Assembly (NCBI RefSeq): GCF_000455125.1
Contig: NZ_AUWR01000044.1
Location: 1 to 43,171 of the forward strand
Origin: Mycobacterium sp. UM_WGJ
Lineage (GTDB): Bacteria; Actinomycetota; Actinomycetes; Mycobacteriales; Mycobacteriaceae
Length of the DNA: 43,171 bases
Direction of reading: 5' to 3'
The notes under the pieces were generated by a model. It ran no database searches. It saw only the letters and a program-made list of their open reading frames with translations, and was not told the DNA's origin. Numbering within the stretch: position 1 is the stretch's first letter; every line of letters begins with the position of its first letter. Shown piece after piece: positions 177 to 22,481 of the stretch. A program made the position numbers and the translations under genes.

Positions 177-349
177 ACCTCGTTAGGTGAGGCGTCTGCA
201 CGGATACAGGCCACTGACCCCGAACGTCGAAAGACGCCCCGGGTCAGGACAGCTCCTCCCGGATTAAGGGTTGAGCCCAAGTGGCTTCCGGGTCTGCACA
301 TTAGTGCAGGCCAGGACACGCCGTGCAGTGCCGAAGCTCTGACGAGAGG
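177..349 (+). promoter_or_regulatory. M-box (ykoK leader) Mg2+ riboswitch aptamer
   Basis: The sequence carries hallmark M-box blocks in order: CGTTAGGTGAGGC at 181-193, GTCGAAAGACGCC near 227-239, GGGTCA near 241, ATTAAGGG near 263, and GCAGTGCCGAAGCTCTGACG near the 3' end. CCTCGT (178-183) can pair with ACGAGAGG (342-349) to close the P1 helix. M-boxes bind Mg2+ and switch genes off when Mg2+ is plentiful. In M. tuberculosis one M-box precedes the PE20-PPE31 operon, so its position ahead of a PPE gene and an mgtC-like gene here fits a magnesium-limitation regulon. Confidence 0.95.
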
Positions 350-378
350 GGTGCGGATCTCGGTTGTCGCCGGGCTAC

Positions 379-437
379 TTCACCTCGTCGTGCATACGTG
401 CAGGCACCCGCGCGTGCCCAGGCCGAGAGGAGGTGAG
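379..437 (+). promoter_or_regulatory. Putative M-box expression platform sequestering a Shine-Dalgarno
   Basis: TTCACCTC (379-386) can pair with GAGGTGAG (430-437), burying the strong ribosome-binding site AGGAGGTGA (429-437 region). The same strand, CTCGTC (384-389), is complementary to GACGAG (341-346), which is the 3' side of aptamer helix P1. The three pairings cannot all form together. With Mg2+, P1 holds 341-346, strand 379-389 is free and masks the SD. Without Mg2+, 341-346 takes up 384-389 and the SD is released. Complementarity is seen directly; the switching logic is inferred. Confidence 0.6.
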
Positions 438-444
438 AGCGACA

Positions 445-519
445 TTGAGTCCGAGTGATAGTTCCTATCCGGGATCGGTGGTCGTCTCCTTCGATCTCGG
501 TACTGCTTTCACCATGTGA
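445..519 (+). CDS. Possible 24-codon leader ORF behind the M-box
   Basis: A TTG codon lies 7-8 bases after an unusually good Shine-Dalgarno (AGGAGGTGA). It opens a 24-codon frame that ends with TGA at 517-519. The peptide starts LSPSDSSYPG and ends GTAFTM. I recognise no family. It is too short for coding statistics, but a strong SD about 350 bases before the PPE start needs an explanation. A four-codon alternative starting with ATT at 444 is also possible. The PPE gene has its own ribosome-binding site, so this would be a regulatory leader peptide or a remnant of a lost gene. Confidence 0.35.
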   Translation: MSPSDSSYPGSVVVSFDLGTAFTM

Positions 520-2749: not shown

Positions 2750-3673
2750 GTGGATGCGTTCGCAGCGGTGTGGTCGGCGTTGCCCGGGCCGATGCGCGAC
2801 CCGGTTATCTTTGCCGTGCCTTTTTTCCTGCTGCTGCTCTCGCTCGAGTGGTTCGCCGCGCGCAAACTGGAGCAGTCCGAAGCAGAGCTGGTGCCGGTCG
2901 GGGCCTATCGCACCCCGGACGCCTGGGCGAGCATCTCGATGGGCCTGGTGTCCATGGCCACCACCGCCGGCTGGAAGTTCGTCGCGCTGCTGGGTTACGC
3001 AGCCATCTATACCTACCTCGCGCCGTGGCATCTGTCGCCGCAGCGCTGGTACACCTGGGTGATCGCACTCGTCGGGGTGGATCTGCTCTACTACACCTAC
3101 CACCGCATCGCGCATCGGATCCGGCTGATCTGGGCGACTCATCAGGCGCACCACTCCAGCCGCTACTTCAACTTCGCCACGGCGCTACGCCAGAAGTGGA
3201 ACAACAGCGGCGAGATCCTGATGTGGATTCCCCTGCCGCTGTTGGGCATTCCGCCGTGGATGGTGTTCGCCAGCTTTTCGGTGAGCCTGGTCTACCAGTT
3301 CTGGGTCCACACCGAGCGGATCGACAAGCTGCCTCGGGCAGTCGAGTTCATCTTCAACACTCCATCGCATCACCGGGTGCACCACGGCATGGACCCGGAG
3401 TACCTGGACAAGAACTACGGCGGGATCCTCATCATCTGGGACCGGCTGTTCGGCAGCTTCGCCGCCGAGCGGTTTCGCCCGCATTACGGGCTGACCAAGC
3501 CGGTCGACACCTTCAACATCGTGACCCTGCAATTCCACGAGTACGCCTCGATCATCGCCGATGTACGCCGTGCGACGCGGTGGCGCGACCGGCTGGGCTA
3601 CATCTTCGGACCGCCCGGCTGGCAGCCCGTGGGCCCGGCAGCGGCCGTCTCCCAGCAACCGAGATTGCCGTGA
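2750..3673 (+). CDS. Fatty acid hydroxylase/sterol desaturase family protein
   Basis: The 307-residue integral membrane protein carries the histidine boxes of the di-iron hydroxylase superfamily: HRIAH (118-122), HQAHH (131-135) and HHRVHH (207-212). An extra His is at 187. Hydrophobic segments near 18-35, 70-90 and 160-185 embed it in the membrane. Such enzymes use O2 to hydroxylate or desaturate lipids. The M. tuberculosis counterpart is Rv1814 (named erg3), but mycobacteria do not make sterols de novo, so the true substrate is unknown. The GTG start has GGAGGT at 2737-2742. It may be read from its own promoter, as it starts 40 bases after mgtC. Confidence 0.9.
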   Translation: MDAFAAVWSALPGPMRDPVIFAVPFFLLLLSLEWFAARKLEQSEAELVPVGAYRTPDAWASISMGLVSMATTAGWKFVALLGYAAIYTYLAPWHLSPQRWYTWVIALVGVDLLYYTYHRIAHRIRLIWATHQAHHSSRYFNFATALRQKWNNSGEILMWIPLPLLGIPPWMVFASFSVSLVYQFWVHTERIDKLPRAVEFIFNTPSHHRVHHGMDPEYLDKNYGGILIIWDRLFGSFAAERFRPHYGLTKPVDTFNIVTLQFHEYASIIADVRRATRWRDRLGYIFGPPGWQPVGPAAAVSQQPRLP

Positions 3674-3781: not shown

Positions 3782-4345
3782 GTGGCACAGAGCTTGGGAG
3801 ACACGCTCACGGCAGGTAAGAAGCTCGTCAAGGGCGAGTCGCTGACCTCTAACAACGGGGCTTACACCCTGACGCTGCAGGAGGACGGCAACCTGGTGCT
3901 GGCGGCGAGGGGCAAAGCGATCTGGGCATCGGGTACCAACGGCAACGACGTGGTCCGTGCCGAGGTGCAGGCGGACGGAAACTTCGTGCTCTACACGGCC
4001 GACAAGCCGATTTGGCACACCGACACCAAGGGCAAGAAGGACGTCAAGCTGGTTCTGCAAGACGACCGCAACCTGGTGCTCTACGCTGCCGACGGCGCGG
4101 CCTGGTCCACCAAGACCGAGACCGACGCCCCGCCGCCGGAGGAGCCCAAGGCTGAAGAGGCGCCGGCTCCCGTGGAGGAGGCCGCACCCGCGGCACGCAC
4201 CTACACCGTGGTCGCCGGTGACACCCTGTTCGCCATCGCCGAGCGGTTCTACGGCGACGGCAACAAGTACCCGCAGATCGCGGAGGCCAGCGGCATCGCC
4301 AACCCTGACCTGATTCACCCCGGTCAGGAGCTGACGATCCCCTGA
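3782..4345 (+). CDS. B-lectin (mannose-binding) plus LysM domain protein
   Basis: The 187-residue protein has a monocot-type B-lectin domain at about 1-112 with three sugar-binding repeats of the form QxDxNxVx[10 protein letters not shown] (33-41), QADGNFVLY (63-71) and QDDRNLVLY (93-101). A Pro/Glu/Ala-rich linker spans 116-138. A LysM domain (140-187) ends in HPGQELTIP and should bind peptidoglycan. M. smegmatis has a described mannose-binding lectin with this architecture. The first repeat has Ala41 where the motif has Tyr. No signal peptide is visible, although the likely ligands lie outside the membrane. The GTG start follows AAAAGGGGACAAC. A strong hairpin terminator follows. Confidence 0.93.
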
Positions 4346-19377: not shown

Positions 19378-19395
19378 TGGCACCGCATCAGCCCC

Positions 19396-19605
19396 GCGCG
19401 GGAGAGTTCCGTGGCAGCCAGCCGCGGACGCCGAAGGAGCAATACCTCTCCGTCAACCTCTCAGGCACCCGGACCGCGCCGGCATTGATGCCTCTGGAAA
19501 GCGGTGACGCCCGTTCGGGTTACACCCGCCCATGGGGAAAGGCGCCGCAGGAATCTCGGCGCCGAATCTCTCAGGCGCCCGGGCCGGGCAGACGACAGAG
19601 GGGGA
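19396..19605 (+). promoter_or_regulatory. Glycine riboswitch, tandem aptamers, upstream of gcvB
   Basis: The first aptamer (about 19396-19503) shows GGAGAGTTCC, CGCCGAAGGAGCAA and AACCTCTCAGGCACCCGGAC. The second (about 19504-19605) shows GGCGCCGCAGGAAT, GAATCTCTCAGGCGCC and GACAGAGG. The repeated CTCTCAGG and GACAGAGG blocks are glycine-riboswitch hallmarks. Glycine binding normally switches the glycine cleavage genes on, and the very next gene is the P-protein gene. The gcvB Shine-Dalgarno is about 35 bases beyond the second aptamer, leaving room for a small expression platform. Confidence 0.93.

Positions 19606-19649: not shown

Positions 19650-22481
<2,832 letters not shown>

Follow-up and report, generated by a model that had tools for sequence, protein, structure and literature searches.

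A probable Mycolicibacter copy of the pe20-type translational M-box, and short reading frames behind M-boxes of other actinomycete genera

Does the leader of a PPE-mgtC gene pair in a probable Mycolicibacter species mask a Shine-Dalgarno (SD) sequence in response to Mg2+ and, if so, by which pairing and for which reading frame? The question arises at the 5' end of contig NZ_AUWR01000044.1 of Mycobacterium sp. UM_WGJ (GCF_000455125.1), analysed over its full 43,171 nt and called the window below. An earlier note had proposed an M-box riboswitch with three mutually exclusive helices, which would turn translation off with Mg2+ and on without it. The aptamer is indeed a full-length M-box at 172-357, with 148.2 bits against a gathering cut-off of 44 and a match to positions 1-169 of the 169 of the model (Rfam RF00380). 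The leader and the genes behind it are made up as follows:

172-357, + strand: predicted M-box (Mg2+) riboswitch aptamer (Rfam RF00380)
176-183, + strand: 5' strand of P1, CACCUCGU (Rfam register)
342-353, + strand: 3' strand of P1, also SD1 or anti-anti-SD (Rfam register; kept pairing of 348-353 with 381-386)
351-458, + strand: possible uORF1, GTG start, 35 codons, through the anti-SD and SD2 (translation)
359-374, + strand: hairpin A, 359-363 with 370-374 (83.5% of cells paired, 66 two-sided, 134 leaders)
379-389, + strand: anti-SD strand, UUCACCUCGUC (complementarity and conservation)
391-402, + strand: small hairpin C, 391-394 with 399-402, weakly kept (78.2% of cells, 29 leaders)
403-418, + strand: hairpin B, 403-407 with 414-418 (91.4% of cells, 39 two-sided, 134 leaders)
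428-436, + strand: SD2 of uORF2, AGGAGGUGA (sequence; conservation)
445-519, + strand: uORF2, TTG start, 24 codons (position and N-terminal pattern mark it as a homologue of the uORF2/Rv1805A type)
678-792, + strand: C-rich, G-poor stretch 5' of the PPE gene, possible Rho-loading region (base composition)
793-1977, + strand: PPE-family gene with PPE-SVP C-terminus (Pfam PF00823, PF12484)
1999-2709, + strand: MgtC gene (Pfam PF02308, PF21770)
2750-3673: fatty acid hydroxylase-family gene, immediately 3' of mgtC

In the Rfam register, P1 joins 176-181 to 348-353 and 182-183 to 342-343. Its 5' strand CACCUCGU recurs as eight identical letters at 381-388, i.e. within the anti-SD, so that a pair of similar pyrimidine strands competes for a pair of similar purine strands, SD1 and SD2. 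All strings named in the earlier note are found where it had placed them, and two of its complementarities are genuine: TTCACCTC (379-386) with GAGGTGAG (430-437), 8 bp including one U•G, and GACGAG (341-346) with CTCGTC (384-389), 6 bp. The pairing of GACGAG with CCTCGT that it had drawn for P1 holds by inspection only for 342-346 with 179-183 (5 bp), in a register that differs from that of Rfam, and the SD that it had read as AGGAGGTGA inside 430-437 lies at 428-436, overlapping that stretch. It had missed the two flanking hairpins, and also that the SD serves a 24-codon uORF and not the PPE gene. We rejected the idea that ribosomes enter the PPE gene via SD2, as this gene has its own AGGAG just before 793. 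No PE gene precedes the PPE gene among the open reading frames of the window, and a sigma-70 promoter scan found none. The same genome carries two further M-boxes (L001 and L002, both on the minus strand), each with an SD2 and a uORF2; the frames downstream of L002 read by eye as PE and PPE proteins, and the downstream stretch examined for L001 holds no clear gene. Elsewhere in the window, a glycine riboswitch aptamer (19389-19486, RF00504, 64.4 bits) lies ahead of a frame at 19650 that is GcvP-like by eye, followed by a second glycine-aptamer-like stretch for which there is no second Rfam match, and the small protein encoded at 3782-4345 has a LysM domain as well as a match to mannose-binding lectin that falls slightly short of the cut-off.

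To compare leaders within the genus we collected 144 loci, which yielded 134 distinct leaders; five loci gave no leader (L013, L026, L027, L103 and L131) and the rest were duplicates. Loci L001-L032 are the best-scoring ones found by the aptamer alone, while for L033-L062 and the places of L065-L144 the platform itself served as query, a procedure that favours conserved platforms. A script recovered the layout from SD1 to SD2 in 29 of the 32 loci L001-L032 (absent in L013, L026 and L027). A pattern specific to the SD2/uORF2 region was matched by 17 named contigs, all of Mycolicibacter, and each of them aligns to the first 2,709 bases of the window, over 445-2,747 columns and with 78-89% identity.

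Which of the pairings are kept? In the 29 leaders, 97.1% of cells have SD1 paired with the anti-SD (348-353 with 381-386), compared with 59-71% in slid controls, and across 134 leaders the figure is 90.0%. The helix 341-346 with 384-389, the alternative favoured by the earlier note, reaches 81.6% (slid controls 27-68%) and 64.7%, respectively. Because of this lower conservation, and because C343-G387 is missing in 16 of the 29 relatives, it was rejected as the conserved alternative helix; judged from the aligned leaders, the conserved alternative pairing is that of 348-353, the better kept anti-SD partner, with 381-386. The anti-SD with SD2 is paired in 90.5% of cells (29 leaders) and 79.9% (134 leaders), and AGGAGGUG of SD2 is kept across the aligned 29. 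Two-sided changes supporting the switch helices are absent from the 29 leaders; in the 134 we count four such cells for SD1 with the anti-SD, two for the anti-SD with SD2 and nine for 341-346 with 384-389, eight of these at 342-388.

In letter-shuffle controls of the structure with anti-SD and SD2 paired, 18 of 500 shuffles match the paired percentage and 139 of 500 the two-sided count; for SD1 with the anti-SD and for 341-346 with 384-389 all 500 of 500 reach the observed values, this control being weak where the purine strands hardly vary. CACCTC occurs between the two hairpins in 18 of the 20 leaders of the window's clade, which are close relatives and not independent (0.2 expected from shuffles), and in 20 of 134 leaders overall (1.1 in shuffles). 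The position of 385 is C in 85 of the 134 leaders, which fits SD1 but not SD2.

Folding the leader with RNAfold gave −143.4 kcal/mol for the free fold and −142.7 kcal/mol with the Rfam register of P1 forced, i.e. nearly equal energies; in the full leader, P1 (7.8 expected pairs) and anti-SD:SD2 (6.8) form together. Forcing 348-353 with 381-386 costs more (−131.7 kcal/mol), as does forcing 341-346 with 384-389 (−128.3 kcal/mol). The predicted off state thus lies ∼12 kcal/mol below the first of these alternatives, and on the RNAfold energies we rejected a stable on state at equilibrium. As the off state is the stable one, the on state needs kinetics, ribosomes or factors. When SD1 is added but P1 is left out, RNAfold keeps the anti-SD on SD2. 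In a fold lacking both SD2 and the P1 5' strand, SD1:anti-SD forms (10.2 expected pairs). SD2 is unpaired with a mean probability of 0.34 when the fold is free, 0.31 under forced SD1:anti-SD and 0.32 without the anti-SD; in the latter two cases it is not freed because it pairs with 438-470, the start of uORF2. RNAfold predicts a free SD2 in none of the states tried: what changes is its partner and the start codon, whose unpaired probability rises from 0.06 to 0.88 when 348-353 with 381-386 is forced.

We further compared these pairings with chance. In the window, linker and SD2 pair with −15.3 kcal/mol (z −3.3), a value matched by 1% of 100 dinucleotide shuffles, but over the 134 leaders this raw duplex test is weak genus-wide, with mean z of −0.55 for SD2 and −0.24 for SD1, and P ≤ 0.05 in 27/134 and 5/134 leaders, respectively. 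A test based on folds does not set the window by itself apart: its anti-SD:SD2 value is reached by 9 of 20 shuffles and its SD1:anti-SD value by 3 of 20. With only the inter-hairpin segment shuffled and each pairing folded without its competitor, the 134 leaders show 6.78 expected pairs for anti-SD:SD2 (shuffles 4.23; above the own shuffle mean in 123/134) and 8.55 for SD1:anti-SD (shuffles 6.98; 97/134). When the whole stretch from SD1 to SD2 is folded, SD1:anti-SD and anti-SD:SD2 lie above the shuffle mean in only 72 and 70 of the 134 leaders.

These observations are best read against D'Halluin et al. (2026; PMC12810186), who describe the pe20 M-box of M. tuberculosis as controlling uORF2 (Rv1805A) via SD1 (the anti-anti-SD), an anti-SD and SD2, on the evidence of lacZ fusions and Northern blots, with Rho-dependent termination as a further part of the control, and who term it the first translational M-box. 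We think it probable that the window holds the Mycolicibacter copy of this pe20 type. SD1, anti-SD and SD2 with mutually exclusive pairing are present by sequence and conservation, and the on state is not stable in RNAfold; the parts, their conservation and the sharing of bases by two pairings are established directly in the window. Since the layout of the window is that of PMC12810186, the mechanism of the earlier note is in essence already published; the note had missed the published Rho component. Its translational Mg2+-off switch is still the best reading and fits the pe20 M-box, though not in the exact alternative register that it gave, and its view that a mycobacterial translational form would be notable has been overtaken by the 2026 publication.

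For the window we infer the Mg2+ response, the kinetics and the Rho step as follows. Mg2+ would fold the aptamer so that P1 holds the strand 342-353; with P1 closed, the anti-SD (379-389) would be free to pair with SD2 (428-437), leaving hairpin B between them. Paired SD2 would allow little translation of uORF2, and expression of PPE-MgtC would fall, probably also via Rho. At low Mg2+, with P1 open, 348-353 could pair with 381-386 around hairpin A before SD2 is made, which would leave SD2 and the uORF2 start with weaker local pairing, so that ribosomes can enter.

Alternatively, the pyrimidine strand might mainly be part of a Rho-loading region, with the aptamer acting via Rho-dependent termination and SD masking being secondary. 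PMC12810186 itself raises this option, leaving open whether the anti-SD acts as a Rho site and placing the main 3' end upstream of uORF2. In the window, the C-rich, G-poor stretch 678-792 (C 0.39 and G 0.20 in 678-756; C 0.38 and G 0.21 in 715-792), a possible Rho-loading region to judge from its base composition, points the same way. However, the C-richness of the linker 357-427 is slight (C 0.37, G 0.31), and the conserved complementarity of the pyrimidine strand to both SD1 and SD2 would need another reason; we regard this alternative as unlikely.

Another possibility is that hairpin B, through its 5' strand (405-408 with 432-435), or else the start of uORF2 does most of the masking of SD2, with a minor role for the anti-SD. 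For the 78 leaders that are less than 88% alike, the RNAalifold structure has SD1 bound to the anti-SD around hairpin A, and SD2 joined through 432-435 to hairpin B (405-408) instead of the anti-SD; this second pairing is kept in 94.2% of cells in 134 leaders, above anti-SD:SD2, and the local pairing that SD2 takes up with 438-470 once the anti-SD is engaged would speak for the uORF2 start. Yet hairpin B itself covaries (39 two-sided cells), so its 5' strand is normally occupied, and 405-408 with SD2 contributes at most 0.04 expected pairs in the window. In M. tuberculosis, moreover, deletion of the anti-SD raised expression (PMC12810186), and we consider a minor anti-SD role quite improbable. 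A transcriptional M-box of the Bacillus ykoK type with an intrinsic terminator would share the identical aptamer family (RF00380), but is highly improbable and was already disfavoured, given that 0 sites with a terminator-like hairpin and T tract were found in 100-800.

If the pe20-type reading is right, the frame under control is uORF2. Its likeness to the uORF2/Rv1805A of M. tuberculosis is drawn from the published description (PMC12810186). Among 125 leaders it starts with ATG in 61, TTG in 48 and GTG in 16. S2, D5 and S6 are kept in 121-122 of the 125 peptides, and residue 7 is Pro in 95 and Ser in 24, the latter including the window and all 20 clade leaders. Across 119 aligned uORF2 frames, third codon positions vary at codons 3, 4, 5, 7, 8 and 9 but are nearly invariant at codons 2 and 6, so that part of the constraint on uORF2 may act on the RNA. 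By raw counts, the possible uORF1 stays open beyond SD2 in 88 of 136 entries and ends ahead of it in 30; uORF1 of M. tuberculosis is described as poorly conserved (PMC12810186).

Is such a frame confined to mycobacteria, as stated for the uORF2 peptide in PMC12810186? M-boxes occur patchily, in 153 of 297 genomes sampled in the genus, and in 27/298 genomes of the order and 24/345 of the class, both including the genus. Outside the genus we took the 40 best-scoring M-box loci, from 16 genera (ten of the same family, others from two families elsewhere in the order and three families elsewhere in the class). A strong 7-base SD with an ORF of 14-50 aa follows within 330 nt in 35 of the 40 loci, compared to 0.6% of shuffles. 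Of the remaining five, L180 lacks such a frame, L183 has a short ORF with a 6-base SD, the frame of L188 runs into masked bases, that of L211 has 6 codons, and in L212 an MgtC-like frame follows the SD directly, with no short uORF. The composition is similar on both sides: over residues 2-10, the 65 distinct peptides from within the genus contain 22% Pro and 13% Asp/Glu, and the 31 from outside it 20% Pro and 12% Asp/Glu, as against 8-10% Pro and 5% Asp/Glu in the later residues. The motif [DHESRG][SG]P is found in 14 of the 31 outside peptides (shuffles: mean 4.6, maximum 10), though some of them share little with the genus peptides beyond composition.

For 20 loci chosen from the 40, we considered the forward frames that begin 100 nt or more past the aptamer and searched the longest of them with Pfam. 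The matches were P-type ATPase (4), MgtE domains (4), NRAMP (3), MgtC (2), CorA (1), ABC permease (1) and a lone CBS domain (1); the other four frames had no match. The anti-SD pairing, by contrast, is not above chance in the 35-37 of the 40 outside loci tested: the own SD1 strand is stronger than the mean with other genera's strands in 14/37, mean z is +0.34 for SD1 and −0.12 for SD2, and 22/35 and 20/35 lie above their shuffle mean. We therefore claim for these genera only the SD and the short ORF. This arrangement, which we did not find in print for M-boxes of other actinomycete genera, speaks against a peptide specific for mycobacteria as stated in PMC12810186. It stands ahead of unrelated Mg2+ or metal transport genes and opens a general leader role to testing in harmless species.

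Compared with the pe20 M-box of M. tuberculosis (PMC12810186), the window has in common SD1 at the end of the aptamer, an anti-SD about halfway, SD2, a short conserved uORF, and PPE and mgtC genes downstream. It differs in that no PE gene is seen between uORF2 and PPE, in its TTG start (an ATG was mutated in PMC12810186) and in Ser at position 7, where Pro is reported. What is added is the test of 134 leaders for kept pairings of a translational M-box, against the nine genomes named in PMC12810186, and the correction of one register. With the Bacillus subtilis ykoK M-box, as described in PMC12810186, the window shares the aptamer class (RF00380) and the expected Mg2+-off direction, but SD masking takes the place of an intrinsic terminator, none being found in 100-800.

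A third comparison is with enterobacterial mgtL and mgtP, which are likewise short Pro-rich ORFs in the leaders of mgtA or mgtC (PMC11282234, PMC3641672). The ORF of mgtL is acidic as well as Pro-rich, like the Pro/acidic-rich start of uORF2, and has an EPDP motif and a link to Rho (PMC11282234); no EPDP motif was seen by eye in the uORF2 peptides inspected inside and outside the genus. A limited literature search found no paper linking the M-box uORF2 to mgtL, and the word mgtL is absent from the text of PMC12810186. Unlike in the mgtL/mgtP leaders, here an M-box precedes the ORF (PMC11282234, PMC3641672). Composition, position and partner genes are what would suggest an old device with two sensors in actinomycetes, in which the M-box gates a Pro/Asp-rich uORF and the uORF in turn acts as a ribosome-based Mg2+/proline sensor like mgtL/mgtP (PMC11282234, PMC3641672), feeding Rho control of the downstream Mg2+ gene, whichever that is. 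We hold this to be rather unlikely; if true, the uORF2 peptide would be a regulatory leader, and not a partner of PE/PPE proteins.
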